Shown one piece after another: positions 4,650 through 60,701 of a DNA stretch of 64,000 bases. This DNA comes from Rhodanobacter sp. DHB23 (lineage in GTDB: Bacteria > Pseudomonadota > Gammaproteobacteria > Xanthomonadales > Rhodanobacteraceae). How positions within the stretch are numbered: the first letter of the stretch is position 1; every line of letters begins with the position of its first letter. Location: assembly GCF_014842975.1 (NCBI RefSeq), contig NZ_JACYXK010000024.1, positions 64,554 through 128,553 on the forward strand, in the 5' to 3' direction. The translations under genes were made by a program, and so were the position numbers. A model generated the notes under the pieces. That model saw nothing but the letters and a program-made list of their open reading frames with translations, had not been told where the DNA came from and did no database searches.

Positions 4650-4857
4650 TCGGTCTCCAGCGCATCAGTCCATCGCATGCGTGACGGAGGCCCGCCTTCC
4701 GCTTCCGATGCTCGGAGTTTCCCGGACGACGCGGCCGCCATCACGAAGGCGGTCGAGTTACCCAAAACGAACCGACGCGCGAAAAGTTGACAGTGGCGTG
4801 CCGGAAGTCATGCACGCCGCGCCGGGTGCGGTTCAGCGTACGGCCGCGGAAACAGGG

Positions 4858-5733: not shown

Positions 5734-5900
5734 GGAATTTCCGGAGTCGGCGGGGGGGAGGGCGTCCATGATCGCATCTGGCGGGCGGCGGCGTCCGGAT
5801 CTCCCGGCCGTCGCCGGGGGCGTCCTGCCGCACCGGGCCATGACCCGCGCCGGCGCCCCGGGTAGAATCTGCCGTTTCCCCACCTGCCACTGGAACGCTC

Positions 5901-7073: not shown

Positions 7074-7084
7074 GCTTCCTGATC

Positions 7085-7159
7085 GTCATCCCGGCGCAAG
7101 CCGGGATCCAGCGCCTTTCGAGGCCCGAGACACTGGATTCCGGCTTTCGCAGGAATGAC
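7085..7159. repeat. REPIN-like inverted pair (family 3)
   Basis: A 75-base element with 27-base imperfect inverted arms: GTCATCCCGGCGCAAGCC at 7085-7102 and its counterpart ending GCAGGAATGAC at 7159. Both arms continue into a matching GGATCCAG/CTGGATTCC segment. It starts 12 bases after the gcdH stop, so it may act as a transcript end-stabiliser. A diverged version of the same arms occurs at 44500-44521 and 44684-44705. Confidence 0.8.
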
Positions 7160-7188
7160 GGAGAGGGCGAGTCGACACCGAGACCAGA

Positions 7189-7740
7189 ATGTCCCGCATG
7201 GGCTGGCAAGACATCCGCATCGAAACCGAACGCCTGATCCTGCGTCCGCCGCAGGCCGGCGATTTCGCGGGTTGGGCGGCCTTCTTCGCCGATCCGGAGG
7301 CCACGCGCCACATGGGCGGACCGCGCAGCGAGCCGCTGGCATGGCGCCATTTCCTGATGATGGTGGGCGCGTGGAACATCCAGGGTGCTTCGTCCTTCTC
7401 GCTGATCGACAAGCGCAGCGGACAATGGCTGGGCTGGAGCGGCCCCTGGGATCCGCCCGGCTGGCCGGGTCGCGAAGTGGGCTGGAGCCTGGTGCGCGCA
7501 GCGTGGGGACACGGCTATGCCACCGAAGCCGCCACGGCCGTCGTCGATTGGGTGTTTCGAACCTTGGGCTGGGACGAAGTGATTCACCTCGTCACACCCG
7601 ACAACCATCCTTCGCAAGGTGTGGCGCGGCGCCTGGGTTCCGGGGTCCTGCGCTGCATCGAGATGTCCGAGCCTTTCAGCGGGGAAGTGGTGGATGTGTG
7701 GGGCCAGAGCCGCGACACTTGGCTGCGTCGCCGCGCATGA
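7189..7740 (+). CDS. GNAT acetyltransferase, RimJ/RimL type
   Basis: A 183-residue N-acetyltransferase of the Acetyltransf_3 group, which moves the acetyl group of acetyl-CoA to an amine. The opening TERLILRPPQAGDFAGWAAF is the signature of RimJ/RimL-like enzymes. The middle part EVGWSLVRAAWGHGYATEA carries the acetyl-CoA pyrophosphate loop, and VTPDNHPSQGVARRLG is the usual late motif. Its stop codon overlaps the start of the next gene (ATGA), so the two are translationally coupled. The acceptor, whether a ribosomal protein or a small molecule, cannot be told from sequence. Confidence 0.85.
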   Translation: MSRMGWQDIRIETERLILRPPQAGDFAGWAAFFADPEATRHMGGPRSEPLAWRHFLMMVGAWNIQGASSFSLIDKRSGQWLGWSGPWDPPGWPGREVGWSLVRAAWGHGYATEAATAVVDWVFRTLGWDEVIHLVTPDNHPSQGVARRLGSGVLRCIEMSEPFSGEVVDVWGQSRDTWLRRRA

Positions 7741-8240
7741 GCCACATCCCGCCCGCGCTGTTCGTCGCGCTTACCGAGCTGGTGCCCGATCTGCACGTGC
7801 ATTGCGCCGAGCCGTGGTGCCTGATCGGCAGCGCGGCGGCGCGCCTGCTTGGCGCCGAGGTGAGCGTGGCCGACATCGACGTGCTGGTTTCGCGCGCCGA
7901 TGCCGAAACATTGGCGACGCTGTGGGCTGAGCGCCGCGACGCCACGCATGTGCCGGCCGACGACGGCCGCTTCCGTTCGCAGTTCGCCCGCTTCGACTTT
8001 CCCGGCCTGCCGGTTGAAGTGATGGGCGGCCTTGAACTCGACCGGGGCGAAGGCTGGCAGCCGGTGTCGCCGGGCCGGCTGGTGCTGGCCGGCGTGCAGG
8101 GCATGGCCGTGCCGGTGCCCGCACTGGACGAGCAGATCCGCATCCTCGAATCCTTCGGCCGCGACAAGGACCGCGCACGCGCCGCGGCCCTGCGCCGCTT
8201 GCGCCAGCCTTCCGTGCTTTCCATCGTTTCCTCTTCCTGA
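7737..8240 (+). CDS. Nucleotidyltransferase-fold protein of unknown role
   Basis: A 167-residue protein whose start overlaps the preceding GNAT stop by four bases. Residues 28-50 read LIGSAAARLLG followed by VADIDVLVSRADA. This is the Gly-Ser plus Asp-x-Asp arrangement of minimal nucleotidyltransferases, in which the two Asp residues bind the catalytic metal. The C-terminal half holds a further acidic stretch (FDFPGLPVEVMGGLELDRGE) and an Arg-rich helix (GRDKDRARAAALRRLR). Homologs are usually annotated as hypothetical. The coupling to a GNAT gene suggests related substrates, but I cannot name one. It could also be a degenerate, non-catalytic member of the fold. Confidence 0.7.
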   Translation: MSHIPPALFVALTELVPDLHVHCAEPWCLIGSAAARLLGAEVSVADIDVLVSRADAETLATLWAERRDATHVPADDGRFRSQFARFDFPGLPVEVMGGLELDRGEGWQPVSPGRLVLAGVQGMAVPVPALDEQIRILESFGRDKDRARAAALRRLRQPSVLSIVSSS

Positions 8241-8250
8241 CGGCATCGCC

Positions 8251-45650: not shown

Positions 45651-46583
45651 TCACAGCGGCTTCCCGTCCACCCGCACCGGCGCGTGGATGTCGCAGATGC
45701 CGACCTTGCCCACCGGCGTGGGATAGAACGTGTTGTGGCCATGGCGCGCGGCATCGATCAGTGCGGCGAAGGTGGGGCTTCCGGTGCGCAGCACCTGGAT
45801 CTGTTCGCGCTCCGCGGCGGGCAGCTCGGAGGCCAGTTTCACCGACAGGATGGGCGTGCGCTCGCCGGCCTTTTCGTAGAAACCCATCGGCCCGGTGCCG
45901 CGCGGCAGCGCCGACAGGTACTGCATGCCCTGCAGCACGCGGCCGGCCACCGCCAGGTTGTGGTCCAGGCGGCGCGGCGCCTGGCCGATGACGGCGTACA
46001 GCGCATTGCCGTTGCCGCTGTCCGGGGGCACGTCGCGCCCCACGCCGACCATGCCGTAGCACTGCACCAGCCATTCCTTGCCGCTGGCCGGGTCGCGCGC
46101 CACCGGGAAGCCTTCGGAGAAACCGACCTGTGGCGCGTAGATGTCGCCGTCGGGCAGCGGCGTCCACGGTTGCTTCGGGTCGATGGCGCGGGTGAATTCC
46201 GGCGGCAGGGTGGCCTTGGCCTTGCCCAGCGGGTGCATCTTCGCCTTGTCGCCGCCGTCGTCGCCGTCCGGGTCGTCCCACTGGGTGACGAAGTTGTCCT
46301 GCACGCGCACGATGGCCAGGCCGTCGAAGTAGTGCTGGCTGACCAGGGTGCGGATGTTCTGCGCATGCAGCGGGGTGAAGTCCGGCGCCAGCTCGATCAC
46401 CACGCGGCCCGCGGGCAACTGCATGTAGAGCAGGTTGGCCGGGTCGGGCGTGCGCCATTCGGCAGGCTTGGACGCATCCAGCAACTCCTTCGCGCTGGGC
46501 GTGGGCTTGTCCTGCGCGGCGTATGAAGGCGACGTGGCCAGGGCGCAGGCAAGCGCCAGGGCAAGCGGGGCGGATCGAATCAT
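45651..46583 (-). CDS. Exported cyclophilin-type peptidyl-prolyl isomerase
   Basis: A 310-residue periplasmic isomerase. A signal peptide (SAPLALALACALATSPSYA) precedes a cyclophilin domain with GRVVIELAPDFTPLHAQNIRTLVSQHYFDGLAIVRVQDNFVTQWDDPDG and NALYAVIGQAPRRLDHNLAVAGRVLQGM. Inserts make it about 120 residues longer than the basic domain. The extra C-terminal part (LAAEREQIQ region, then GHNTFYPTPVGKVGICDIHAP) is typical of the large cyclophilins of Xanthomonadales. It follows the permease gene by four bases and is likely transcribed with it. Confidence 0.87.
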   Translation of the reverse strand: MIRSAPLALALACALATSPSYAAQDKPTPSAKELLDASKPAEWRTPDPANLLYMQLPAGRVVIELAPDFTPLHAQNIRTLVSQHYFDGLAIVRVQDNFVTQWDDPDGDDGGDKAKMHPLGKAKATLPPEFTRAIDPKQPWTPLPDGDIYAPQVGFSEGFPVARDPASGKEWLVQCYGMVGVGRDVPPDSGNGNALYAVIGQAPRRLDHNLAVAGRVLQGMQYLSALPRGTGPMGFYEKAGERTPILSVKLASELPAAEREQIQVLRTGSPTFAALIDAARHGHNTFYPTPVGKVGICDIHAPVRVDGKPL

Positions 46584-46587
46584 GGAT

Positions 46588-47982
46588 TTACTCCCCTTTG
46601 GGAATGGGCTTGCCGCCGCGCCGGCCCTTCCACGCGTAGCCGATCCCCAGCAGCACGAACCACACCGGGCTGGCCAGCAGGGCGGCGCGGGTATCGGCCC
46701 GCAGGCAGAGCAGCACCAGCACGAAGGCGAAGAACGCCAGGCACACCCAGCACATGAACACGCCGCCGGGCATCTTGTACGCCGAGTCGGCATGCTGCTG
46801 CGGGCGCTTGCGGCGGTAGGCCATGTACGCGCACAGGATCAGCGACCACACGAACATGAAGAGCACGGCGGACAGCGTGGTGACCAGGGTGAACGCGGTG
46901 ACCAGGTTGGGCACGAGGTAGATCAGCGCCGCGCCCAGCAGCAGGCAGAAGCAGGAGAACAGCAGGCCCAGCGACGGCACCGCGGCCTTCGACAGGCGCG
47001 CGAATGCCTTGGGCGCATGGCCTTCGTCGGCCAGGCCGTACAGCATGCGGCTGGTGGAGAACATGCCGCTGTTGGCCGAAGAGGTGGCCGAGGTCAGCAC
47101 CACGAAATTGATCAGGCTGGCCGCCGCCGGCACGCCGGCCAGTACGAACAGTTCCACGAACGGGCTCTTGTCCGCCTCGACCAGGTGCCACGGCGTCACC
47201 GCCATGATCGCCGCCAGCGCCAGCACGTAGAAGATGATGATGCGCACCGGGATCGAGTTGATCGCCTTCGGCAGGTTGCGCCGCGGGTCGGCGGTCTCGG
47301 CGGCGGTGGTGCCGACCAGCTCGATGCCGACGAAGGCGAACACCGCGATCTGGAAGCCGGCGAAGAAACCCGACAGTCCATGCGGGAAGAGGCCGCCGTC
47401 GTTCCACAGGTTGGCCAGCGTAGCCTTGTTCCCCGCCGGCGAATGGAAGCCCCAGGCTACCAGCGCGAAGCCGACCACGATCAGCGCGACGATGGCGATG
47501 ATCTTGATCAGCGCGAACCAGAACTCCAGCTCGCCGAACATCTTCACCGTCGCCAGGTTCAGGCCGAGCAGCAGCAACACGCACAGCAGCGCCGGTATCC
47601 ACGGCGCCAGATGCGGCAGCCAGAACTGCGCGTAGGAGGCGATCGCGATCACCTCGGCGATCGCGGTGACGATCCAGCAGAACCAGTACGTCCAGCCGCA
47701 GAAGAAACCGGCCCACGGCCCGAGCAGGTCGGTGGAGAAGTCGATGAACGACTTGTACTCCAGGTTCGACAGCAGCAGCTCGCCCATCGCGCGCATCACG
47801 AAGAACAGCATCACGCCGATGATCAGGTACACCAGCAGGATCGACGGCCCGGCCAGGCTGATGGTCTTGCCCGAGCCCATGAACAGGCCGGTGCCGATCG
47901 CGCCGCCGAGGGCGATCAGCTGCAGGTGGCGGTTGGAGAGGCTGCGCCTCAGGTGGTCCGGCTGTTGCGTGGGTGCGGACAT
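46588..47982 (-). CDS. cycA: D-serine/D-alanine/glycine permease, CycA-like
   Basis: A 464-residue amino-acid/proton symporter of the APC superfamily with twelve predicted helices. The N-terminal LRRSLSNRHLQLIALGGAIGTGLFMGSGKTISLAGPSI is the hallmark of the AAT group, and the closest named pattern is CycA: EFWFALIKIIAIVALIVVG and FVGIELVGTTAAETADPRRNLPKAINSIP. It would import D-serine, D-alanine or glycine. The ATG at 47982 is supported by the usual short hydrophilic N-terminus. A cyclophilin gene follows four bases downstream. Other AAT permeases (AroP, ProY) remain possible. Confidence 0.85.
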   Translation of the reverse strand: MSAPTQQPDHLRRSLSNRHLQLIALGGAIGTGLFMGSGKTISLAGPSILLVYLIIGVMLFFVMRAMGELLLSNLEYKSFIDFSTDLLGPWAGFFCGWTYWFCWIVTAIAEVIAIASYAQFWLPHLAPWIPALLCVLLLLGLNLATVKMFGELEFWFALIKIIAIVALIVVGFALVAWGFHSPAGNKATLANLWNDGGLFPHGLSGFFAGFQIAVFAFVGIELVGTTAAETADPRRNLPKAINSIPVRIIIFYVLALAAIMAVTPWHLVEADKSPFVELFVLAGVPAAASLINFVVLTSATSSANSGMFSTSRMLYGLADEGHAPKAFARLSKAAVPSLGLLFSCFCLLLGAALIYLVPNLVTAFTLVTTLSAVLFMFVWSLILCAYMAYRRKRPQQHADSAYKMPGGVFMCWVCLAFFAFVLVLLCLRADTRAALLASPVWFVLLGIGYAWKGRRGGKPIPKGE

Positions 47983-48073
47983 GCGGGCGCCATGGTCGGG
48001 AGTGAGCCGTCACCATAGAAGAAACATCCGGTTTCTTGAAAGTGCCGACTGAGTTCGCGCAAACCCGCCCCGG

Positions 48074-48916
48074 CTAGTCTTGGACGGGCGTCGTCTTTTC
48101 GCCGTAGTAAAGCCGGTAGAACCATGCCCACACCGTCTCGATCTGCTTCTGGATCCGCGGCGGCACGGGGTGCGGCGTGGGCGCGACGATGCGGGTGAAT
48201 CGCCGGTGCGGGTACTTCATCCGGTAGTGGCTGTCGCTTTCGTGCATTCCCGCGGCGATCCGTTCGGGATCGATTTCGCAGGGCGATACCCCCAGCCACG
48301 CGTGCAGGTGCGACATGCACTTCACCGGTTGCGTCACCAGATCCTCGAAGCGCACGAAGTACAGGCGTTGCTGCACGGCCGGGGGAAGATCCAGCACCGC
48401 CTGGAGCGAGACGAGGGGGGCGCCGATCACCCGGTCTTTCGCGAACAACGCATCGGCACGACCGAAGCGGTCGTAGTCCGCCAGGTGGTCGTTGAAGTCC
48501 ACCAGTATCGTGCGCTGGTGCTGCGCCTCGATCGACCCGTAGACCTGTCCGAGTTCCCGCAGGCAGACGATCAGTCGGGCTTCCGGTTCGATGTGCAGTA
48601 GCAGTTCGATCGCATGCAGCCAGGCGCGGTTCTTGTCGACCACCACCCGGTGTGCGCCGCTGTCGTGGTGCCACCCGCGCAGAAACCCCTGCATGGCCGC
48701 GGCAAGGTGCGCGTAGCTCGTCTCGAACGAGGTATCGAGTTGCGACAGGAAGAACTGGTCGTCGCTGATCATCCGCCGGATGCCGAGCAGCGTGTTGCAC
48801 AGTGGCGAACTGTGTCCTTCGCACTGGATCTCCGGGTGCTGTGCAAGCAGCTGGCACAGCAGGGTCGAACCCGCGCGCGGGAGACCGGTGACGCCGACGA
48901 AAGCGCTTCCTGCCAC
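48074..48916 (-). CDS. Sulfotransferase, last gene of the two-partner-secretion operon
   Basis: A 280-residue sulfotransferase that would move sulfate from PAPS to a hydroxyl group. The PAPS phosphate loop is GVTGLPRAGSTLLCQLLAQHP (about residues 8-28), and the 3'-phosphate site is RLIVCLRELGQVYGSIEAQ with its Arg and Ser. Later marks are VRFEDLVTQPVKCMSHLHAWLG and the C-terminal WFYRLYYG. I place the start at the GTG at 48916, one base after the tpsB stop, with AAGGGG as ribosome site inside tpsB; no ATG fits. The tight coupling ties it to the secretion system. Target may be the exoprotein or a cell-surface sugar; the sequence does not decide. Confidence 0.82.
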   Translation of the reverse strand: MAGSAFVGVTGLPRAGSTLLCQLLAQHPEIQCEGHSSPLCNTLLGIRRMISDDQFFLSQLDTSFETSYAHLAAAMQGFLRGWHHDSGAHRVVVDKNRAWLHAIELLLHIEPEARLIVCLRELGQVYGSIEAQHQRTILVDFNDHLADYDRFGRADALFAKDRVIGAPLVSLQAVLDLPPAVQQRLYFVRFEDLVTQPVKCMSHLHAWLGVSPCEIDPERIAAGMHESDSHYRMKYPHRRFTRIVAPTPHPVPPRIQKQIETVWAWFYRLYYGEKTTPVQD

Positions 48917-48917
48917 G

Positions 48918-50594
48918 TCAGAACCCCTTGCTGATCTGCATCCACGCACGCGTGGACGGACGCTTGCCTGCCAGTTCCGGCGTGCTGCCTATGGGCTGCC
49001 CCAGTTGGACCTGTGCCACCCATTGCCCGGGGCCGGCCCAGTTCAGCCCCACGCCGGCGCTGCTCAACGAGGCATGGTTGCCGCCAGTATCGCCGGCCCA
49101 TGGCTGCGGGTTGATCCACAGGCCGCCCTGGTCGACGAACAGGCTGCCTTGCCAGGCGCCGCCCGGCAGGCCCAGGTCATGGCGCAGCTCCACCGTGGCC
49201 AGGTATCCGGAAGCGCCGGCCAGCGTACTCACGTCGTAGCCGCGCACGCTCTGCATGCCGCCGAGCAGGACCTGCTCGGAGCTGTCCAGGTTGCGGTGGC
49301 TGTACTGGCCAGTGAGCGACAGGTACAGGCGCGTCGTGGCGGTGATCGTCTGCAGGCGGCTCAGGTTGCCGTCCCAATGCAGCTCGTGGCCCTGGGTGTC
49401 CGCGGTCACCGCGTCAGCCGCCCTGGCCGCGGGATTGTCGAACGCCAATTGTCCGTGCGTCGCCGACAACTGCGCCTGCGTCACGCCGCCACCACCCCAA
49501 TCATCGCGGTGGTCGAACGTGCTGCTGGCTGTCCAGTCCCACGAATGGCGGTCGTTGTGCACGCCGATGCTGCCGGTGTCGTCGGCCAGATGGCGGTTGT
49601 CGACCTCGAGCCGGACACTGAGGTTCGTGTCGGGGCTGCGCACGACAGGCTGGAGCAGCCACGCACTGGCTTCGGTGGCGTGGCCACGGGCATCCAGGTC
49701 CGACAGGTTGTCGCCCAGCCGGTAGGCGAGCGCGGAGTACGCAAGTCCGAACCGGGTGCCGGCGCCGTTGAGCGCAAGGTCGTAGGCCAGGTGGCCGTAA
49801 TGCATGTGCCCGTCGGAAACCAGGGCGCCTGCGCTGAGCTGGTCGCCGAGGCCTGCAAGATTGTTCACGGCCACGTTGCCGCCGAGACGGAGACGGCCGG
49901 TATAGCGGTCACCCCCATCGTCCAGTGTGAGATTGCCGGTTACGGGCGGCAACGGCTGGGCCTCGACGTCGAGGTTGCTGGTTCCGGGCGCGCTGCCAGG
50001 ACTCAGGATGGCATGCCCCTGCACGCCCGGCAGGTCGTTCAACAACAACAACTGGCGATCGAGGGATTCCTGCGTCACCGCCTGTCCGGCCTGCAGCGGG
50101 GCCAGGGTGGCGTCAAGCAGGCTCGTCCGGGCGCGGCTGTGGTTGCTCACCGCCACCTGGTCGTAGCGCGCTTCGACAATCTTGAAGCGCACCACGCCTC
50201 CATCCAGTGCCTGCGCCGGTATGACGGCGCGGGACAATGGATAGCCATGGGCGTGGTAGTAGTCGGTGATGCGTTGCGCGAGCACGGCAAGCGTGGCGAG
50301 CGTCTGCGTGTGGCCTTCGCCATCGGCGACCAACGCGTGCAGCGTCCGGGTATCGAATACCGTATTGCCGTCGACAACGATCCGCCTCACCTCGAAAGGG
50401 GTGTTGTCGCTGGCATGCGTGGTCCCGGGATTCTGGATCTGCACACCCGTATCACTGCGGGGCAGCAGATGCTGTGAAGGCTGTGCCTGCTGCAGCAGTT
50501 GACCGCTGCTGGGTGGCACCTGCTGCGCGAACGCAGGGGCGGCCAGCAGGGCCATGGCGAGTGGCGACAAGCGCAACGTGATGGAACGGGTCAC
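48918..50594 (-). CDS. TpsB outer-membrane transporter (FhaC/ShlB family)
   Basis: A 558-residue outer-membrane protein that secretes its TpsA partner. Signal peptide MTRSITLRLSPLAMALLAAP is followed by a Gln/Pro-rich stretch and a POTRA domain (about 75-160: FEVRRIVVDGNTVFDTRTLHALV, YYHAHGYPLSRAVIPAQAL, VVRFKIVEARYDQV). The rest is a 16-strand barrel ending in WMQISKGF with the C-terminal Phe used for insertion. Motif SVRGYDVSTLAGASGYLATVELRHDLG in the C-terminal third corresponds to the conserved VRGY tetrad in the inner loop. The start is a GTG at 50594 and the gene lies 42 bases after tpsA, the same order as fhaB-fhaC in Bordetella. Confidence 0.92.
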   Translation of the reverse strand: MTRSITLRLSPLAMALLAAPAFAQQVPPSSGQLLQQAQPSQHLLPRSDTGVQIQNPGTTHASDNTPFEVRRIVVDGNTVFDTRTLHALVADGEGHTQTLATLAVLAQRITDYYHAHGYPLSRAVIPAQALDGGVVRFKIVEARYDQVAVSNHSRARTSLLDATLAPLQAGQAVTQESLDRQLLLLNDLPGVQGHAILSPGSAPGTSNLDVEAQPLPPVTGNLTLDDGGDRYTGRLRLGGNVAVNNLAGLGDQLSAGALVSDGHMHYGHLAYDLALNGAGTRFGLAYSALAYRLGDNLSDLDARGHATEASAWLLQPVVRSPDTNLSVRLEVDNRHLADDTGSIGVHNDRHSWDWTASSTFDHRDDWGGGGVTQAQLSATHGQLAFDNPAARAADAVTADTQGHELHWDGNLSRLQTITATTRLYLSLTGQYSHRNLDSSEQVLLGGMQSVRGYDVSTLAGASGYLATVELRHDLGLPGGAWQGSLFVDQGGLWINPQPWAGDTGGNHASLSSAGVGLNWAGPGQWVAQVQLGQPIGSTPELAGKRPSTRAWMQISKGF

Positions 50595-50636
50595 AGGCAG
50601 GTATCCGTAAGGCGTAAGGGAGAAGGAGGCGAGTCG

Positions 50637-53600
50637 TCAGGGCAGGCGTACGCCGCCGCTTACGACGCGGACATCCGGGGCGTAGAGGTCCGATCCGGCT
50701 GGCGCAGTGGCGGAGCGTGGCGGCATGGTTGCCGGCAACGATTCGTCCGGCGAGGCCGCCGCCGATACCAGCAGCCCGCCTGGCAATGACGCGATACCCG
50801 CAGGTGCGGCCTGTCCAAGCAACTGCTGCGCAGTTGCCACGCCCGGCAGTGCGGTTGCGCTGTCGGGCGCCACGTTGAAGGCGAGCGCATTGCCTGCGGC
50901 CTGCACGAAGGTGTAGTTGCCGTCGTTGGCGGCAAGCCCGCTGCCGATGATGGCGTATTGCCCGGCCGGGCTCTGTGCCGTGGCCTGGGTGGCAAAGCCC
51001 AACGTGCCGGTCGTGGCATCGGCCAGCGTGTCGCTGCCCTGGAAGCCGGTGACCGTGCCGCCCAGTGCCGGAATCGCCTGCCCGGCATACACCTGCACCG
51101 GTGTCGCCACGTAGGTCAGCGTGGCTGGCGTTATCGCCAGCCTGCCGCTGTCGTAGGTGATGGTGTAGTTGTCCGAGCTCAGGCCGGCGGGCGTGATCGC
51201 ATAGTTGCCCACGTTCATGGCGCCCTGGGAATTTCCGCCATAGCCCAGTGCGCCACCCAGTACGGCGGCGGTCTGCCCGTCGACGAAGCCGCTGTAGGTC
51301 ACGCCGTTGCCGCCGCTGTAGGGTTGGGCGTCGTAGATGGCGCTGGCGTTGTTGGCAGTGACGGTGAGGCGGGCAGGGGTGATCGTTCCGATCGCAGCAC
51401 TGGCCGTGCCGTTGCCAAGGACATAGTTGCCTGCGGCACTGCCGCTGATGGCCAGCCCGCCCACCTGCACATCGATGCCGCTGCCGGCATTCGCCGAGGC
51501 ATAAGTGCCGGAGCTTGGGGTGTCGAGGCTTACCGCATCGCCGCCGATCACGCCGGTCAACAAGTAGTTGCCGGACGCAAGCGTTGCTGCCGACGTGCCG
51601 TCATACACCTTGCTGATCTGGCCGGTAAGGCTGGCGGTCAGCACCGCCGGCGTGATCGTCGCCGCCACGCTGGCGCTGTTGGCCGCCAAAGCGTAGTCAC
51701 TGGCCAACGAACCCACGCTGCCCGTGATGCTGCCGATGCCCAGGCCCGTCACCGTTACATTCGTGGCGCTGGATACCTGCGAGCTGTTGTAGGCCGCGCC
51801 GGTGTCCGTCAAGGTTGCGCCGGTATCGCCGGAGACCAGCCCGCTGTAACCGTACGCCGGGGTGAACCCGGCCGGTGCGCTGGTCGTGCCGTCGTAGGTC
51901 TTGGTCACGCCGGTGTTGGTCAGCGTTGCCGTCAGCGTTGCCGGCGTGATGGTCGCCGCCACATTCGTGCTGGTGGAGGCCAGGACGTAATCGCTGGCCA
52001 GTGAACCGTTGCTGCCGGCAATACCGGTGATGCCCAGCCCGGATACGGTGACCTCGGTGGCAGCGGCCACGTGCGCGCTGTCGTATGCGGCCCCCGTGTC
52101 GGACAGGGTGGCGGCGGTATCGCCGGAGACGAATCCGGTGACGTCGTATGTCGGGGTGAACCCGGCCGGCGCACTGGTCGTGCCGTCGTAGGTCTTGGTC
52201 ACGCCGCTGTTGGTCAGCGTCGCCGTCAGCGTTGCCGGCGTGATGGTCGCCGCGACATTCGCGCTGGTGGAGGCCAGGACGTAATCGCTGGCCAGTGAAC
52301 CGTTGCTGCCGGCAATACCGGTGATGCCCAGCCCGGATACGGTGACGTCGGTGGCAGTGGCCACGTGCGCGCTGTTGTAGGCCGCACCGGTGTCCGTCAA
52401 GGTCGCGGCGGTATCGCCGGAGACGAATCCGGTGACGTCGTACGTCGGGGTGAAGCCGGCCGGCGCACTGGTCGTCCCGTCGTAGGCCTTGATCACGCCA
52501 GTGTTGGTCAGCGTCGTCGTCAGCGTTGCCGGCGTGATGGTCGCCGCGATATTCGCGCTGGTGGAGGCCAGGACGTAATCGCTGGCTAGCGAAGCATTGC
52601 CGCCGGTGACATCGGCGATGCCCAGCCCCGATACGGTGACCGCGCTGGCGCTGGCCACGTGCGCGCTGTCGTATGCGGCCCCCGTGTCGGACAGGGTGGC
52701 GCCGGTATCGCCGGAGACAAATCCGGTGACGTCGTACGTCGGGGTGAAGCCGGCCGGTGCGTTGGTCGTCCCATCGTAGGTCTTGGTCACGCCGGTGTTG
52801 GTCAGCGTCGCCGTCAATGTGGCAGGCGTGATCGTTGCCGGCACGTACAAACTGGTGGATGCCAGGGTGTAATCGCTGGCCTGCGAAGCATTGCTGCCAG
52901 TGACGCCGGTGATGCCCAGTCCCGATACGGTGACCTCGGTGGCGGTGGTCACATGTGCGCTGTCGTAAGCAGTGCCTGTGCTGGACAGGGTGGCGGCGGT
53001 ATCGCCGGAGACGAATCCGGTGATGTCGTACGTCGGGGTGAAACCGACCGGTGCGCTGGTCGTCCCGTCGTAGGTCTTGGTCACGCCGCTGTTGGTCAAC
53101 GTTGCCGTCAGCGTTGCAGGCGTGATGGTCGCCGCGACATTCGCACTGGTGGAGGCCAAGGTGTAATCGCTGGCCTGCGAAGCATTGCTGCCGGTGACAC
53201 TGGTGATGCCCACCCCGGATACGGTGACGCCGGTGGCGGTGGCCACATGCGCGCTGTCGTAAACGCTGCCGGCATTGGACAGGGTCGCAGCGGTATCGCC
53301 GGGCACGAATCCGGTGATGCTGTACGTCGGGGTGAAGCCGGCCGGCGCACTGGTCGTGCCGTCGTAGGTCTTGGTCACGCCGGTGTTGGTCAGCGTCGCC
53401 GTCAGCGTTGCCGGCGTGATGGTCGCCGCGACATTCGCGCTGGTGGAGGCCAGGACGTAATCGCTGGCCAGTGAACCGTTGCTGCCGGCAATGCCAGTGA
53501 TGCCCAGCCCGGATACGGTGACGTCGGTGGCAGTGGCCACGTGCGCGCTGTCGTATGCGGCCCCCGTGTCGGACAGGGTGGCGGCGGTATCGCCGGAGAC

Positions 53601-56600
53601 GAATCCAGTGATGTCGTACGTCGGGGTGAAGCCGGCCGGTGCGTTGGTCGTGCCGTCATAGGTCTTGGTCACGCCGCTGTTGGTCAACGCTGCCGTCAGC
53701 GTTGCAGGCGTGATGGTCGCCGCGACATTCGCGTTGGTGGAGGCCAGGGCGTAATCGCTGGCCAGTGAACCGTTGCTGCCGGCAATACCGGTGATGCCCA
53801 GCCCGGATACGGTGACGCCGGTGGCGCTGGCCACGTGCGCGCTGTTGTATGCGGCCCCCGTGTCGGACAGGGTGGCGGCGGTATCGCCGGAGACGAATCC
53901 GGTGACGTCGTACGTCGGGGTGAACCCGGCCGGTGCGCTGGTCGTGCCATCGTAGGTCTTGGTCACGCCGGTGTTGGTCAACGTCGCCGTCAATGTGGCC
54001 GGCGTGATGGTCGCCGCGACATTCGCGCTGGTGGATGCCAGGGCGTAATCGCTGGCCAGTGAGCCGTTGCTGCCGATGACATTGGTGATGCCCAGCCCGG
54101 ATACGGTGACCTCGGTGGCGGTGGCTACATGCGCGCTGTCGTAAACGCTGCCGGTATTGGACAGGGTCGCGGCGGTATCGCCGGAGACAAAGCCAGTGAC
54201 GTCGTACGTCGGGGTGAAACCGGCAGGGGCGCTGGTCGTGCCGTCGTAGGTCTTGGTCACGCCGCTGTTGGTCAACGTCGCCGTCAATGTGGCCGGCGTG
54301 ATGGTCCCGGCCACCGGGGCGATGGCGGGCAGCGCCACGCTGTAGTCCGTGCTCAGGCTGCCGTTCGTGCTGCCGAGGATATCCACCGAAAGGCTGCCGC
54401 TGGCGCCGATGCTGCTGGCGGTGGCGACGTGGCTGCTGTTGTAGTCCAGCGTGATGCCGCTGGTATTGAGCGACAGACTGTCGCCGCCGATCGCGCCGCT
54501 GACACTGCCGCCGGACAGGATCGCGCCGGCCGCTGTTGTGGTGCCGTCGTAGACCTTGGTCGTGATGCCGCCGATGGTCGGTGCCAAGACTGTCAGCGTC
54601 AGCGGCGAGATGCTGGCGACGCCAATACCGGTGGAAGCCGTGGTGCTCGACAAGGTGTAATCGCCGATTACGGAATTGTCGCTGCCGTTGCCGATGATCG
54701 CCGACAGTGACAGGCCGGTTTGCGCGATCATCGTCGCCGAGACGACATGCGCGGAATCGAAGACCGGCGTCGCCGAACTGCTCACCGTGGCACTGTCACC
54801 CGACACCAGGCCCGCGATGCTGTAGGTCGGGGTGAAGCCGCTGGGCGCTGCCGTGGTGCCGTCGTAGGTCTTGGTGACGTTGGTGGTGTTGGAGAGCGAT
54901 ACCGTCAATGGCGCTGGCGTGATCGTGGCCGCCACGCTCGCGTTGACGGATGCCAGCGTGTAATCGGTAGCCTGCGAACCGTTGCTGCCGGTGACGCCGG
55001 CGATGCCCAGCCCCGATACGGTGACTTCGGTGGCGCTGACCACATGCGCACTGTCGTAAGCGGTGCCCGTGTCGGACAGGGTGGCGGCGGTATCGCCGGA
55101 GACAAACCCGGCGATGTCGTATGTCGGAGTGAACCCGGTCGGTGCGTTGGTCGTCCCGTCGTAGGTCTTGGTCACGCCGCTGTTGGTCAGGGTCGCAGTC
55201 AATGTGGCAGGCGTGATCGTTGCCGGCACGTACACACTGGTGGAGGCCAGGGTGTAATCGCTGGCCAGTGATGCATTGCTGCCGGTGACGCCGGTGATGC
55301 CCAGTCCGGATACGGTGACCTCGGTGGCGGTGGCCACGTGCGCGCTATCGTACGTGGCGCCCGTGTTGGACAGGGTGGCGGCGGTGTCGCCGGAGACAAA
55401 TCCGATGATGCTGTACGTCGGGGTGAAGCCGGCAGGGGCGCTGGTCGTCCCGTCGTAGGTCTTGGTCACGCCGTTGTTGGTCAGCGTCGCCGTCAATATG
55501 GCAGGCGTGATGGTCGCCGCGACATTCGCGCTAGTGGAGGCCAGGACGTAATCGCTGGCCAGTGAACCGTTGCTGCCGGCAATGCCAGTGATGCCCAGCC
55601 CGGATACGGTGACGTCGGTGGCAGTGGCCACGTGCGCGCTGTTGTAGGCCGCACCGGTGTCCGTCAAGGTCGCGGCGGTATCGCCGGAGACGAATCCGGT
55701 GACGTCGTACGTCGGGGTGAACCCGGCCGGCGCGGCGATGGTGCCATCATAGGTTTTGCTGACGCCGGTGTTGGTCAGCGCTGCCGTCAGTGGCGCCGGC
55801 GTGATGGTTCCGGCCACCGGGGCGATGGAGGGCAACGTTACGCTGTAGTCCGTGCTCTGGCTGCCGTTCGTGCTGCTGAGGATGTCCACCGCGAGGCTGC
55901 CGCTGGCGCCGATGCTGCTGGCGGTGGCGACGTGGCTGCTGTTGTAGTCCAGCGTGATGCCGCTGGTGTCGAGTGACAGGTCGTCGCCGACGAGCGCGCC
56001 GCTGACACCGCCGCCGGACAGGATCGCGCCGGATGCTGTCGTGCTGCCGTCGTAGACCTTGGTCGTGCTGCCGCCGATGGTCGGCGCCGAGACCGTCAGC
56101 GTCAGCGGCGAGATGCTGGCGATGCCAGCGCCGGTGGCAGCCGTGGTGCTCGCCAGGGTGTAATCGCCGAGCACGGAATTGTCGGTGCCGTTGCCGGTGA
56201 TCGATCCCAACGACAGGCCGCCTTGCGTGATCGCCGTCGCCGAGGCGACGTGCGCGGAATCGAAGACCGGCGTCGCCGAACTGCTCACCGTGGCACTGTC
56301 ACCCGACACCAGGCCCGCGATGCTGTAGGTCGGGGTGAAGCCGCTGGGCGCTGCCGTGGTGCCGTCGTAGGTCTTGCTGACGTTGGTGGTGTTGGAGAGC
56401 GATAACGTCAGTGGCGCTGGCGTGATCGTGGCCGCCACGCTCGCGTTGCCGGATGCCAGCGTGTAATCGGTAGCCTGCGAACCGTTGCTGCCGGTGACGC
56501 CGGTGATGCCCAGCCCCGATACGGTGACCTCGGTGGCGCTGGCCACATGCGCGCTGTCGTAAGCGATGCCCGTGCTGGACAGGTTGGCATCGGTATCGCC

Positions 56601-59600
56601 CGAGACCAGCCCGCTGTAGCTGTACGTCGGCGTAAAGCCAGCCGGTGCATTGGTCGTGCCGTCATAGGTCTTGGTCACGCCGCTGTTGGTCAGCGTCGCT
56701 GTCAGCGTCGCCGGCACGATGCTTGCGATGCCAGCGCCGGTGGCAGCCGTGGTGCTCGCCAGGGTGTAATCGCCGAGCACGGAATTGTCGGTGCCGTTGC
56801 CGGTGATCGATGCCAACGACAGGCCGCCCTGCGTGATCGCCGTCGCCGAGGCGACGTGTGCGGAATCGAAGACCGGCGTCGCCGAACTGCTCACCGTGGC
56901 GCTGTCGCCCGGAACCAGGCCCGCGATGCTGTAGGTCGGAGTGAAGCCCGACGGTGCGGACGCGGTGCCGTCGTAGGTCTTGCTGACGTTGGTGGTGTTG
57001 GAGAGCGACACCGTCAACGGTGCTGGCGTGATCGTGGCCGCCACGCTCGCGTTGCCGGATGCCAGCGTGTAATCGCTGGCCTGCGAACCGTTGCTGCCGG
57101 TGACGCTGGTGATGCCCAGCCCCGATACGGTGACCTCGGTGGCGCTGGCCACATGCGCGCTGTCGTAAGCGATGCCCGTGCTGGACAGGCTGGCGCTGGT
57201 GTCGCCCGAGACCAGCCCGCTGTAGCTGTACGTCGGTGTAAAGCCAGCCGGCGCATTGGTCGTGCCGTCATAGGTCTTGGTCACACCGCTGTTGGTCAGC
57301 GTCGCCGTCAGTGTCGCCGGCGTGATGGTCCCGGCCATTGCGGCGATGGAGGGCATCGCCACGCTGTAGTCCGTGCTCTGGCTGCCGTGCGTGCTGCTGA
57401 GGATATTCACCGAAAGGCTGCCGCTGGCGCCGATGCTGCTGGCGGTGGCGACGTGGCTGCTGTTGTAGTTCAGTGAGATGCCGCTGGTGTTGAGCGACAG
57501 GTTGTCGCCGCCGAGCGCGCCACTGATGCTGCCGCCAACCAAGGTGGCGCCGATTGCCGTCGTGGTGCCGTCGTAGACCTTGGTCGTGATGCCGCCGATG
57601 GTCGGTGCCGTGGCCGCCAGCACGATGGGCGTAATGCTCGCCGACACGTTGGCGCTGGTGGAGGCCAGGGTGTAATCGCCGGCCAGCGAGCCATTGCTGC
57701 CGGTGACGCCGGTGATGCCAAGCCCCGATACGGTGAGCTCGGTGGCGCCGGCCACGTGCGCGTTGTTGTACGCGGCACCCGTGTCGGACAGGGTCGCGGC
57801 GGTATCGCCGGAGACAAAGCCGGTGACGTGGTATGTCGGGGTAAAGCCGGATGGTGCGCTGGTTGTCCCGTCGTAGGTCTTGGTCACGCCGGTATTGGTC
57901 AGCGATACCGTCAGCGTCGCCGGGTTGATCGTCAGGGTCGCGCTTGACGTGCCTATGCTCAGGTCGTAGGTGGTCGAATACGCCGACGATATGTTCTCGG
58001 CATGGGAGCCGGCGTGTTGCGCCGCCGTCAACCCCAGCGTGATTGCCGAAACATTTGGCGATGGCAACGAATAGCCCACCACCGCGGTGTCCTGATTGGT
58101 TCCGTTGTACGTCACCGTTTGATTGCTCGCGGAGATCGTCAGCGGAACCAGCAGGCTTTCGATCAGGGGCGTGGTGTCGCCAGCGTAGATACGCCAGGCC
58201 AGGCCCTGGCCGCCGGTTGTCGCAATGCTCCAGCCTGAAAAATTGCTGGCTTGCTCCATCTGGGTCGTGGTCAAGCCAGCTACCCCACTGGTGCTGCCAT
58301 TGCCAACACCACTGGGCAGCGCACTGTTGTTCGAGGTATCCCAATAGCTGGTGGTGACCTTGCCAGTGTAGCCAGCGGGGATGTTGACCTCGCCAACCAG
58401 ACCACCCAGATAATCGTGCGTGTTCGGACTCGACACTGTTCCCGTGGCATACGTGTCGGTGATCGAGCCGTTGCCATAGTTGTAGCCCACAAGTCCGCCG
58501 ATGGCGTTCCCGTAATTACTCCCGCTGTACGTAATCTTGGCGCTGGACACGCTGCCTGTGGCATAGGCATTCACGATGGTTCCAGGGTTAAAACCGACGA
58601 GTCCACCAATATTGTCTGCTTCAGGCAAGGTGCCACTATAGGAACCACTCACCGACCCAGTCGCATAGGCATTGCGAATCGTGCCGTAATTGGTCCCGAC
58701 GAGGCCTCCGAGATTGGCGGAATATGACGAGCCGGTAACCGCTCCCGTGGCATAGGCGTTACTGATGGTTCCACCGGACTCGTTGGCGCCGGCCAGTCCA
58801 CCCACCCACTCGCCGCCTCCTTGGTCGCTCGCGTTGCTTGGGTTTCCCGCGCCGCTGACCGTTCCCGTCATGAAAACGTTGTTGATGGTGCCTGAGTTAT
58901 CGCCCACCAATCCGCCAATGGAAGCCCCCTGGCTTGTGCCCGAAACGCTTTCGTTCAACAAACCCACGTTGCGGATCGTGCCCGAGGACGCTCCAAACAA
59001 CCCTACGTCGGTTGCGGTGGAGTTCGTGATGCTGAGGCCGCTGATGGTGTGGCCAAGTCCATCGAACACACCCGAGAACGCGGTGGTGCTGTCTCCGATC
59101 GGCGTGAAGTTGCCTGAGAGAGTCAGGTTGCCCGCAAGCGCATAGAAGCCGGATGTCCCCATGCCCCCTAGCGTTGAAGCGCTGTTGACCAGCGTGTAGC
59201 TGTGCCCGTTGATCGTCAGCGAGTTGCCCGAACCCGTGAAATTCACCTGCCCAACGAACCCGCTGCTGCCCAGCCCCATGTTCAGCGTGCCGCCGGTCAC
59301 GGCGGCGTCCCCGCCATTGGCCGTCGCCGTGTTGACCGCAAGGCCTGCCGTGCCGCTCGCCGTCATCGTCGCGTTGACGTTGACGTTGTTGGCCGCCGTC
59401 AGCGTCAGCGTGTGCAGGCTCCAGCTTACGTTGTCGTCGATATTGATGTTGCCGCTGCCGCCCGCCGTCCCCGCGCTTGACTGGATGGTGACGGGTCCGC
59501 CCGCCAGCTCGCTCGTCAGCGTCGCGCCCGTCATGTTGCCGCCGCTAGGCGCGACCGTGAAATCGGACGGGTCGATCAGCCACGTTCCGGCCAGGCCCAG

Positions 59601-60701
59601 GCGGGCGGCGGTCGTGATCCGCGCGGTGTCCGCAACATTGACCTGCGCGGCGCTCGTTTCGACCTGTCCGCCGTTCCCGCCATCGGGGGCGCTGGCATCG
59701 AGCGTGCCGCCCACGCCGACCGTGCCTGCATCCATGCCGCCCAGCAGCATGATGTGGCCGCTCCGGTTCTGCACGGTCTGCGCCTCGATGGTGCCGGTGT
59801 TGTTCACCGCGCTGGCGAGCAGGCTGTCGCGTGCGCCGGCGGTCATCCATACGTTGCCGCCATCGGCTTCGATCAACTGGCCGTTTTGCGCCAGGGCGTC
59901 GAGCGCGCCCTGGTCCACGCGCACGCCCACCAGCTTGTCGCCGCTGAAGCTGAGCGTCACCGCGCTGCCGCCGGCGAGCGCCACGGCACCGAGCTGGGCA
60001 TGAATTGCCCCCTGGTTGACGACCTGGTTGCCGAGCAGGGCCGCGTAGCCGCCGCCGGCTACGTTGATCGTGCCCAGATTGGTCACGCTGCCCTTGCCGG
60101 TGCCGCTGAAGCTCAGCGAGCCGGTGTCCAGGGTGTTGTCGTCGACATCCAGCGTCGAGGCGACGAGGCCTCCCACGTTCACCTGCGCGCTCTTGCCGAA
60201 CAGGATGCCGTTGGGATTGATCAGGAAGACCTGGCCGTTGGCGTCGAGGTGGCCGAAGATCCGGCTGCCGTTGGTGTCGGCGATGCGGTTGACCGCAATG
60301 GCGCTGGCATTCGGCTGCACGAAGTCCACGGTGGACTGGCTGCCGATATCGAAGGTCTGCCAGTTGAGCGAGAGGTTCTGGCTCTGCTGGGTGATGGTGA
60401 GCGTATTGCCGTGCTGCGCAAGCTGGCCGGTGCCGCCGGTGACCTGGCCGCCCGTGGGCAGCGCGTTTGCCGCCACGGCGGCGGTGACGGCGGGGGAGGC
60501 GCCCGTGACGGGAATGCCGGGGGAGGGTATGGCCGCCAGCGCCACCAGCGGCAGGCTCAGGGGGATGCCTGCCAACCATGCCGCGCGACGCGTGCCGCCT
60601 TCGGCGCTGCGCCCGCCCTTGCGGTGGCCGCGGGTGAGTTCGGACGCGACCTGGAGCACGCACAGCTCGCGGTTCCAGACCAACTGAAAGATACGATTCA
60701 T
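50637..60701 (-). CDS. Very large TpsA exoprotein with 22 YDG repeats
   Basis: A 3354-residue secreted adhesin-like protein of the filamentous hemagglutinin type. It begins with an extended signal peptide (MNRIFQLVWNRELCVLQVAS) preceded by an AGGGGA site, then a hydrophobic core ending near LVALAAIPSPGIPV. The TPS secretion domain spans about 75-300 with NPNGILFG near residue 164. About five GLUG motifs (GGLVGxNxGTIxNAYATG) lie near 565-770, an MBG-like domain follows (NQTVTYNGTNQDT), then 22 YDG units of about 98 residues (937 to about 3034), and two further MBG-like domains. No clear membrane anchor or LPXTG signal is present. The frame is open throughout. It heads an operon with tpsB and a sulfotransferase. 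Confidence 0.92.
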   Translation of the reverse strand: MNRIFQLVWNRELCVLQVASELTRGHRKGGRSAEGGTRRAAWLAGIPLSLPLVALAAIPSPGIPVTGASPAVTAAVAANALPTGGQVTGGTGQLAQHGNTLTITQQSQNLSLNWQTFDIGSQSTVDFVQPNASAIAVNRIADTNGSRIFGHLDANGQVFLINPNGILFGKSAQVNVGGLVASTLDVDDNTLDTGSLSFSGTGKGSVTNLGTINVAGGGYAALLGNQVVNQGAIHAQLGAVALAGGSAVTLSFSGDKLVGVRVDQGALDALAQNGQLIEADGGNVWMTAGARDSLLASAVNNTGTIEAQTVQNRSGHIMLLGGMDAGTVGVGGTLDASAPDGGNGGQVETSAAQVNVADTARITTAARLGLAGTWLIDPSDFTVAPSGGNMTGATLTSELAGGPVTIQSSAGTAGGSGNINIDDNVSWSLHTLTLTAANNVNVNATMTASGTAGLAVNTATANGGDAAVTGGTLNMGLGSSGFVGQVNFTGSGNSLTINGHSYTLVNSASTLGGMGTSGFYALAGNLTLSGNFTPIGDSTTAFSGVFDGLGHTISGLSITNSTATDVGLFGASSGTIRNVGLLNESVSGTSQGASIGGLVGDNSGTINNVFMTGTVSGAGNPSNASDQGGGEWVGGLAGANESGGTISNAYATGAVTGSSYSANLGGLVGTNYGTIRNAYATGSVSGSYSGTLPEADNIGGLVGFNPGTIVNAYATGSVSSAKITYSGSNYGNAIGGLVGYNYGNGSITDTYATGTVSSPNTHDYLGGLVGEVNIPAGYTGKVTTSYWDTSNNSALPSGVGNGSTSGVAGLTTTQMEQASNFSGWSIATTGGQGLAWRIYAGDTTPLIESLLVPLTISASNQTVTYNGTNQDTAVVGYSLPSPNVSAITLGLTAAQHAGSHAENISSAYSTTYDLSIGTSSATLTINPATLTVSLTNTGVTKTYDGTTSAPSGFTPTYHVTGFVSGDTAATLSDTGAAYNNAHVAGATELTVSGLGITGVTGSNGSLAGDYTLASTSANVSASITPIVLAATAPTIGGITTKVYDGTTTAIGATLVGGSISGALGGDNLSLNTSGISLNYNSSHVATASSIGASGSLSVNILSSTHGSQSTDYSVAMPSIAAMAGTITPATLTATLTNSGVTKTYDGTTNAPAGFTPTYSYSGLVSGDTSASLSSTGIAYDSAHVASATEVTVSGLGITSVTGSNGSQASDYTLASGNASVAATITPAPLTVSLSNTTNVSKTYDGTASAPSGFTPTYSIAGLVPGDSATVSSSATPVFDSAHVASATAITQGGLSLASITGNGTDNSVLGDYTLASTTAATGAGIASIVPATLTATLTNSGVTKTYDGTTNAPAGFTPTYSYSGLVSGDTDANLSSTGIAYDSAHVASATEVTVSGLGITGVTGSNGSQATDYTLASGNASVAATITPAPLTLSLSNTTNVSKTYDGTTAAPSGFTPTYSIAGLVSGDSATVSSSATPVFDSAHVASATAITQGGLSLGSITGNGTDNSVLGDYTLASTTAATGAGIASISPLTLTVSAPTIGGSTTKVYDGSTTASGAILSGGGVSGALVGDDLSLDTSGITLDYNSSHVATASSIGASGSLAVDILSSTNGSQSTDYSVTLPSIAPVAGTITPAPLTAALTNTGVSKTYDGTIAAPAGFTPTYDVTGFVSGDTAATLTDTGAAYNSAHVATATDVTVSGLGITGIAGSNGSLASDYVLASTSANVAATITPAILTATLTNNGVTKTYDGTTSAPAGFTPTYSIIGFVSGDTAATLSNTGATYDSAHVATATEVTVSGLGITGVTGSNASLASDYTLASTSVYVPATITPATLTATLTNSGVTKTYDGTTNAPTGFTPTYDIAGFVSGDTAATLSDTGTAYDSAHVVSATEVTVSGLGIAGVTGSNGSQATDYTLASVNASVAATITPAPLTVSLSNTTNVTKTYDGTTAAPSGFTPTYSIAGLVSGDSATVSSSATPVFDSAHVVSATMIAQTGLSLSAIIGNGSDNSVIGDYTLSSTTASTGIGVASISPLTLTVLAPTIGGITTKVYDGTTTAAGAILSGGSVSGAIGGDSLSLNTSGITLDYNSSHVATASSIGASGSLSVDILGSTNGSLSTDYSVALPAIAPVAGTITPATLTATLTNSGVTKTYDGTTSAPAGFTPTYDVTGFVSGDTAATLSNTGSVYDSAHVATATEVTVSGLGITNVIGSNGSLASDYALASTSANVAATITPATLTATLTNTGVTKTYDGTTSAPAGFTPTYDVTGFVSGDTAATLSDTGAAYNSAHVASATGVTVSGLGITGIAGSNGSLASDYALASTNANVAATITPATLTAALTNSGVTKTYDGTTNAPAGFTPTYDITGFVSGDTAATLSDTGAAYDSAHVATATDVTVSGLGITGIAGSNGSLASDYVLASTSANVAATITPATLTATLTNTGVTKTYDGTTSAPAGFTPTYSITGFVPGDTAATLSNAGSVYDSAHVATATGVTVSGVGITSVTGSNASQASDYTLASTSANVAATITPATLTATLTNSGVTKTYDGTTSAPVGFTPTYDITGFVSGDTAATLSSTGTAYDSAHVTTATEVTVSGLGITGVTGSNASQASDYTLASTSLYVPATITPATLTATLTNTGVTKTYDGTTNAPAGFTPTYDVTGFVSGDTGATLSDTGAAYDSAHVASASAVTVSGLGIADVTGGNASLASDYVLASTSANIAATITPATLTTTLTNTGVIKAYDGTTSAPAGFTPTYDVTGFVSGDTAATLTDTGAAYNSAHVATATDVTVSGLGITGIAGSNGSLASDYVLASTSANVAATITPATLTATLTNSGVTKTYDGTTSAPAGFTPTYDVTGFVSGDTAATLSDTGAAYDSAHVAAATEVTVSGLGITGIAGSNGSLASDYVLASTSTNVAATITPATLTATLTNTGVTKTYDGTTSAPAGFTPAYGYSGLVSGDTGATLTDTGAAYNSSQVSSATNVTVTGLGIGSITGSVGSLASDYALAANSASVAATITPAVLTASLTGQISKVYDGTSAATLASGNYLLTGVIGGDAVSLDTPSSGTYASANAGSGIDVQVGGLAISGSAAGNYVLGNGTASAAIGTITPARLTVTANNASAIYDAQPYSGGNGVTYSGFVDGQTAAVLGGALGYGGNSQGAMNVGNYAITPAGLSSDNYTITYDSGRLAITPATLTYVATPVQVYAGQAIPALGGTVTGFQGSDTLADATTGTLGFATQATAQSPAGQYAIIGSGLAANDGNYTFVQAAGNALAFNVAPDSATALPGVATAQQLLGQAAPAGIASLPGGLLVSAAASPDESLPATMPPRSATAPAGSDLYAPDVRVVSGGVRLP
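51340..57890 (-). repeat. Tandem YDG-domain repeats, period 294 bases
   Basis: Twenty-two units, each with a K-x-YDG motif, are arranged head to tail in the exoprotein gene. Most are 98 residues (294 bases) and nearly identical in DNA; between 51891 and 54243 the same bases recur at exactly 294-base intervals. Four unit types can be told apart: A (APAGFTPTYDVTGF), B (TTKVYDGTT, SSIGASGSL), C (APSGFTPTYSIAGL, lacking the A-type tail) and a divergent last one. Order from the N-terminus: A B A C A C B A A A C B, then nine A, then the last. The pattern C-B-A occurs twice, pointing to duplicated blocks. Confidence 0.9.
58400..59000 (-). repeat. GLUG-motif repeats in the exoprotein
   Basis: Five copies of a 30-to-45-residue unit with the theme GGLVG-x-N-x-G-x-I-x-N-A-Y-ATG-x-V-SG occur before the first MBG-like domain. 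GLUG motifs are frequent in bacterial surface adhesins and IgA-peptidase-like proteins and probably form beta-helix turns. Confidence 0.8.

Follow-up and report, generated by a model that had tools for sequence, protein, structure and literature searches.

Why would a two-partner secretion (TPS) locus end in a gene for a sulfotransferase, and on what would such an enzyme act? The question is raised by three genes on the minus strand of the window, by which we mean the whole 64,000-nucleotide stretch of DNA that was analysed. A sequence-only reading of this stretch had described tpsA, tpsB and a sulfotransferase gene as an unbroken series on one strand, and our analysis agrees. The first gene, tpsA (50637..60701, minus strand), encodes a giant exoprotein of 3354 aa read from the ATG at 60701 (MNRIFQLVWNRE...). 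After a gap of 42 bases comes tpsB (48918..50594, minus), which encodes a predicted outer-membrane pore of 558 aa, and then the sulfotransferase gene (48074..48916, minus), whose 280-aa product belongs to PF13469 and is called ST here. The same reading had ST beginning one base after tpsB with its ribosome site inside tpsB, and both details were confirmed. The tpsB stop codon TGA occupies 48920-48918 and the GTG start of ST 48916-48914, leaving a gap of 1 base, and AAGGGG, which resembles a ribosome-binding site, lies within tpsB at 48929-48924 (48924..48929, minus), 7 bases 5′ of the GTG. Neither a sigma-70-like promoter nor a coding-strand terminator was found between 47900 and 61200, and the frame 3′ of ST (46583-48016) had no Pfam match.

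The domains of the first two proteins are those of type Vb secretion. In TpsA, Pfam recognizes an extended signal peptide (ESPR; 60558..60701, minus), a TPS secretion domain (59733..60467, minus), GLUG, 22 YDG stretches and MBG_2, with ESPR and TPS above the Pfam cut-off as in two-partner secretion. The adjoining tpsB encodes the POTRA_2 domain and ShlB barrel of a type Vb partner. Based on these domains and on adjacency, TpsA is a putative substrate for export by TpsB. On the 3′ side of the TPS domain lies a GLUG module (58485..59219, minus; borders drawn by motif) with INGHSYTL ... FDGLGHTI ... GGLVG repeats, and beyond it an array of YDG repeats (51315..57881, minus). The 22 KxYDG motifs of this array delimit 21 intervening units, ten of which are 98 aa long, each with 4 or 5 Tyr. 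The sequence-only reading had observed that the tyrosines of these units sit next to Asp, and this pattern is real: 68 of the 121 Tyr of TpsA touch Asp or Glu, compared with about 10.5% expected from composition. The protein also has an NGGVRLP-like motif near its C-terminus (50640-50660). The motif is common in TpsAs of the same class, linked to ST or not (L160-L199), and was rejected as an ST-linked feature since unlinked TpsAs carry it too.

ST matches the Pfam profile Sulfotransfer_3 at 67.8 bits (cut-off 27), and no signal peptide was seen in it by eye. The genome from which the window comes (4 Mb) gives 17 Sulfotransfer_3 match rows, two of which are neighbouring pieces. An alignment of 49 STs has 80 invariant columns, and R14, G16-S17-T18, K95, R120 and S128 show no substitution in any of the 79 rows of a larger alignment, a set that leaves out L075 (Asp for Gly16) and L095 (broken frame). 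By likeness to known sulfotransferases, R14, G16-S17-T18, R120 and S128 would form the PAPS site. ST thus combines the PF13469 profile with the PAPS-site residues of a PAPS-dependent sulfotransferase; such an activity is predicted, with neighbouring APS kinase genes in its support.

By both sequence and fold, the closest solved structures are those of protein-tyrosine sulfotransferases (TPSTs). TPST1, TPST2 and tick TPST take profile ranks 1-7 among solved structures (best E 3.6e-10, the match spanning about the first 130 of 273 positions), and TPSTs fill ranks 1-13 of a fold search (TM about 0.5) made with a predicted ST model of mean pLDDT 75, in which residues 135-153 fall below 50. The catalytic residues of TPST2 are given as R78, E99, K158 and S285 in the portions of PMC5562738 available to us. 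The Arg and Lys are aligned and invariant in ST; the Glu aligns with the variable ST position 35, and the region of S285 lies outside the alignment. Position 33 is conserved (76 E, 3 D), and Glu33 may replace the catalytic Glu of TPST. In TPST1, R102 and R106 contact acidic residues of the substrate (same portions of PMC5562738). In a weak alignment they correspond to Pro38 and Thr42 of ST, which gives no ground for expecting an acidic preference.

How regularly is ST found with a TPS system? ST was detected at E up to 1e-40 in 12 of 197 genomes of the bacterial family, and a TPS domain like that of the window (E up to 1e-25) in 72 of 197. TPS domains that match that of the window at 84% identity or more were found at 11 places in 9 of the 197 genomes searched. 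All nine genomes carry ST, seven intact and two truncated, which upholds the proposed coupling of ST and TPS. Among the other 63 TPS-positive genomes, with at most 70% identity, one (G147) holds tpsB and ST remnants. Related tpsB genes standing without the sulfotransferase, the latter grouping with unrelated loci, had been named as an observation that would speak against coupling. This was made in part, in two related strains (L125 and L126) where tpsA and tpsB are intact and ST is cut to about 100 residues (L125 lying near a contig end). In L124, what is left of tpsB and of ST are remnants. Together with the truncated genes of L125 and L126 beside intact tpsA and tpsB, this indicates that ST is dispensable in those strains. 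Within the window's genus, a close relative of ST is absent from the 14 other genomes searched (1 of 15 carries ST). For ST relatives at 55-59% identity (L127; L129, on a 5-kb contig), no TPS was found in the fetched DNA. The 55% relative at L127 (6633-8561) has as neighbours proteins that, by eye, resemble secreted ones, in place of TPS.

In GTDB genomes at large, 133 relatives of ST were found, which form a tight family, and the best 80 of these, 64-88% identical, were surveyed with flanks of up to 8 kb. Among these 80 loci, TpsB or a TPS domain occurs in 49 (TpsB in 44, the TPS domain in 30). A further 17 of the 31 loci without a TPS match have a YDG/GLUG exoprotein frame beside ST, called in three (L035, L037, L047) by weak YDG similarity only, which brings the loci with an exoprotein or TPS partner to 66 of the best 80. 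In the remaining 14 (L043, L048, L050, L051, L063, L065, L066, L069, L075, L076, L095, L098, L102, L104) no exoprotein was seen. In ten of them the flank falls short of 8 kb on one side or both; L048, L050, L063 and L104 lack an exoprotein although both flanks reach 8 kb, and these four speak against a strict link. APS kinase is present in 4 of the 14. The STs of two of the 14 look damaged, by Gly16 to Asp in L075 and by a broken frame in L095. Upstream of the ST in L065 and L076, which lack TPS, there is a secreted protein that looks, by eye, FecR-like.

Members of the ST family thus stand mostly beside exoproteins of the GLUG/YDG class, in several bacterial classes, and their carriers include isolates of Dyella, Collimonas and Janthinobacterium. 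Three MAG records among the best 80 of 133 loci hold two STs. A contig binned as Candidatus Eremiobacteraeota (L031) has a Dyella-like tpsA-tpsB-ST with 77-87% identity to the window's, and is probably a mis-binned Dyella contig. A 48-50% relative (L029:14959-15834) is carried by the Geminocystis plasmid pGM3709_03, where its neighbours are a tyrosine recombinase on one side and a transposase on the other, and the fetched stretch had no matches to TPS, TpsB or GLUG. Neighbour clusters 4 and 15 of the survey were set aside as apparent antisense frames.

The arrangement of the genes varies. Among the best 80 of 133 relatives, the order tpsA-tpsB-ST occurs 21 times, (tpsB-)tpsA-ST 14 times (TpsB seen in 11), convergent orders nine times, divergent orders three times and ST-tpsA twice. 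The linked TPS domains are not one clade, requiring 7 changes on the TPS tree versus 15.5 when shuffled. Because of the five gene orders and these repeated changes, a single inherited operon is unlikely to be the source of the linkage. Over 38 loci the median pairwise identity is 73% for ST versus 34% for TpsB, and the distances of the two proteins correlate with r 0.57, a value reached in 0 of 2000 permutations. In the ST tree, the sequence from the window groups with those of Dyella in a single clade (support 98) inside a largely betaproteobacterial group, with Burkholderia-type STs as neighbours at modest support (81). This nesting suggests that ST has probably moved between classes.

Linkage was also assessed at the scale of whole genomes. 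Twenty carrier genomes picked by hand contain one ST each and 78 TPS domains in all. In 18 of the 20, the distance from the single ST to a TPS domain is 0.5-11 kb; if placement were random, 0.35 genomes would be expected to have the two within about 12 kb of each other (P about 2e-31). In one of the two exceptions, the genome of L074, ST follows a YDG frame of 700 aa that has no TPS domain; in the other, the genome of L081, the exoprotein frame is interrupted and the stretch from the contig start to ST has no TPS domain (L177). Other PF13469 proteins served as a control. Within 1.5-kb flanks, TpsB was found at 10 of 12 loci of this ST family, one of them a remnant, and at a single place in the control set of 57 loci with other PF13469 proteins (L001-L008, L010-L028 and L130-L159, from the same genome and its relatives, some being the same places). 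Two control loci, L151 and L153, gave weak TPS-domain matches of 27 and 25 bits. The TpsB and TPS profiles used for this control, for the survey of the 80 loci and for the TpsA comparison below were trained on linked members, and their scores lean towards them.

The sole control place with TpsB is a second TPS locus in the genome of the window itself. There, on contig C20 (L123:1073-4245 and 4613-8290), a TPS system lies beside a PF13469 sulfotransferase that is divergent from tpsB. This sulfotransferase is of another subfamily, 25% identical to ST and present in 56 of 117 of the bacterial family. It was rejected as a second example of the TPS-ST pairing because TpsB was not seen beside that subfamily elsewhere, among 30 loci.

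Which feature of the exoprotein accompanies ST? The sequence-only reading had argued from the YDG tyrosines, and as a general rule this argument failed. Three or more YDG motifs were counted in 8 of 18 linked TpsAs and, among unlinked TpsAs of the same class, in 8 of 11 (Fisher p 0.25), so that these repeats are as frequent or more so away from ST, and the YDG tyrosines were rejected as a general target. The 11 are the unlinked TpsAs above 390 bits, and all come from ST-carrying genomes, which makes targets in cis and in trans inseparable in this comparison. They were drawn from about 60 unlinked TPS places in the hand-picked genomes, of which 41 were fetched (40 plus L123), 27 scored and 14 without a profile match. 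The 18 leave out the linked L177, which has no TPS domain; L166 is cut at a gap. Acid-flanked tyrosines vary widely among linked TpsAs, from zero in that of Solimicrobium to 9.7-20 per 1000 residues in those of Dyella type, the richest. A preference of ST for acid-flanked Tyr found no support, either in the TpsA comparison or in the weak alignment with TPST1.

The GLUG module behaves differently. GGLVG motifs are found in 17 of 18 linked versus 4 of 11 unlinked TpsAs (Fisher p 0.001, in a test that ignores kinship), and a stricter FDGLGHTI-type motif in 15 of 18 versus 4 of 11. Among the linked TPS frames of at least 1500 bases from the best 80 of 133 loci, a set of 30 that overlaps the 18 and skips one short frame (L052), GGLVG is present in 30, the FDGLGHTI-type motif in 25 and at least three KxYDG in 17. 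Within the bacterial family, the module occurs in 9 of 9 linked TpsAs, two of them with truncated ST, versus 2 of 19 scorable unlinked ones (of 30 loci, 2 could not be scored). Both unlinked TpsAs with GLUG (L228 and L229) come from genomes without ST, so that GLUG by itself is not sufficient. Taken together, these counts single out the GLUG module that immediately follows the TPS domain, rather than the YDG array, as the part of TpsA that best accompanies ST, and this module is a candidate for the target of ST. No Tyr motif specific to linked TpsAs could be proved; the top pair motifs look GLUG-like and are confounded by kinship.

A third recurrent partner bears on the sulfate donor. The recurring gene directly after ST, often overlapping its end, encodes APS kinase: PF01583 matched in 7 of 7 scanned members of this cluster, and three other neighbours had no match. 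APS kinase was found in 26 of the best 80 of 133 loci, in 25 of them within 1.7 kb of ST. In the Geobacter locus L099 it is a GTPase-APS kinase fusion 1.6 kb on, and an APS kinase lies at the same 1.6 kb distance in three more loci. The single APS kinase of the window's genome is encoded elsewhere on the chromosome. Clustering of neighbours over the best 80 of 133 loci gave the exoprotein, TpsB and APS kinase as the most widely shared.

Based upon these observations, we think it probable that the locus is a three-partner TPS system in which a cytosolic ST sulfates TpsA before export, much as HMW1C acts. ST would work in the cytosol and draw its PAPS from APS kinase. Sulfate would be added to the unfolded TpsA, which would then be exported by Sec and TpsB, and on the resulting surface fibre the fixed negative charge would alter folding, stability or binding. 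By likeness to TPST, the sulfated residue is most likely tyrosine, and the target is more likely to lie in or near the GLUG module following the TPS domain than in the YDG repeats. A bolder proposal, which we hold to be slightly less likely than not, is that the locus belongs to an undescribed class of three-partner secretion systems spread by gene transfer among beta- and gammaproteobacteria, Desulfuromonadia and Chlorobi. Giant exoproteins built of repeats would there be sulfated in the cytosol, ahead of their export, by a dedicated protein (tyrosine) sulfotransferase that often has an APS kinase of its own.

Several other explanations were weighed against sulfation of TpsA. ST could act on the cell's own surface glycans or lipids (capsule, LPS or exopolysaccharide) that anchor or bind the exoprotein; its coupling to TPS would then be functional, with TpsA not being the substrate. 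It would suit this explanation that the fold search also found heparan 3-O-sulfotransferases and CurM, and that the only NCBIfam match to ST is the nodulation protein profile NodProtNoeE, at 30 bits versus a cut-off of 500. However, the carbohydrate sulfotransferases rank below the TPSTs by sequence and by fold, no glycan-synthesis family was identified among the neighbour clusters that were annotated (some of the clusters only), and the exoprotein, TpsB and APS kinase remain the partners shared most widely by the best 80 of 133 loci. We regard a glycan or lipid substrate as unlikely. Slightly more unlikely, in our estimation, is an ST that acts on a small molecule or lipid and meets TPS genes only through shared mobile adhesin islands. 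The probable movement of the window/Dyella ST clade between classes, the 50% relative near an integrase and a transposase on a cyanobacterial plasmid, and the 14 loci without a visible exoprotein among the best 80 of 133 are all in keeping with mobile islands. Nevertheless, hitch-hiking does not predict that ST would rejoin TPS exoproteins of one and the same class in five gene orders, and neither does it predict PAPS synthesis next door.

The two remaining explanations concern what ST does to TpsA itself. Sulfation of the acid-flanked tyrosines of the YDG repeats draws on the 68 of 121 Tyr that touch Asp or Glu in the window's TpsA and on the abundance of such residues in the Dyella-type linked TpsAs. 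It fits poorly with the fewer than three YDG motifs in 10 of 18 linked TpsAs, when 8 of 11 same-class unlinked TpsAs have at least three, and with the acid-reading arginines of TPST1, which are not conserved in the ST alignment. We consider it improbable overall, and it could still hold within the window's own lineage. A catalytically dead ST serving as a chaperone of TpsA would have a parallel in the chaperone role proposed for HMW1C too, in the portions of PMC3983070 available to us, but the PAPS-site residues are invariant in 79 of 79 rows (the altered L075 being left out) and APS kinase is a frequent neighbour, and we give this explanation hardly any credence.

Should sulfation of TpsA before export prove true, sulfation would be a regular modification of bacterial surface proteins beyond RaxX, parallel to glycosylation by HMW1C, and the family would provide new enzymes for protein sulfation in E. 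coli. No description of a TPS system with a sulfotransferase was found in the open-access literature on TPS, sulfotransferases and bacterial tyrosine sulfation. In the retrieved portions of papers that matched both TPS and sulfotransferase, the sulfotransferase was RaxST, mentioned there without a link to TPS, and PMC10932419, to judge from its retrieved portion, concerns arylsulfate sulfotransferases. RaxX, along with an earlier claim for Ax21, is the only precedent for bacterial protein tyrosine sulfation in the portions of the papers searched.

The RaxX-RaxST-RaxA-RaxB system of Xanthomonas likewise places a dedicated sulfotransferase, the tyrosine sulfotransferase RaxST, beside the exported protein that it modifies (PMC6637879, in the portion available). 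The RaxX precursor has 60 residues and is dealt with by a type I system, whereas the window encodes a 3354-aa TPS exoprotein, and the adjacent same-strand genes of ST are those of TpsA and TpsB, not of a small peptide and a type I exporter; RaxST is likened to ST here by description. With animal TPST1 and TPST2 and tick TPST, the nearest solved structures, ST shares the catalytic Arg and Lys. In contrast, no conserved counterpart of their catalytic Glu or acid-reading Arg is aligned in ST, and TPSTs are membrane-anchored and luminal according to the available portions of PMC5562738. In cdiBCAI loci, the third gene has also been suggested to modify the exoprotein (PMC5422565, in part); its product CdiC is a predicted toxin acyltransferase, while the third gene of the window encodes a sulfotransferase. 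The parallel that guides our reading is HMW1A/HMW1B/HMW1C of Haemophilus influenzae, with Etp of E. coli, where a TPS pair is likewise joined by a third gene, whose product modifies TpsA in the cytosol (portions of PMC3983070 and PMC5422565), HMW1C glycosylating HMW1 in the cytoplasm prior to export (PMC3983070, same portion). HMW1C is an N-linked hexosyltransferase, whereas the third gene of the window encodes a predicted PAPS sulfotransferase from a family often accompanied by APS kinase. Since this third gene belongs to PF13469, another enzyme family, the window locus falls outside the HMW1C type, although it may work like HMW1ABC.
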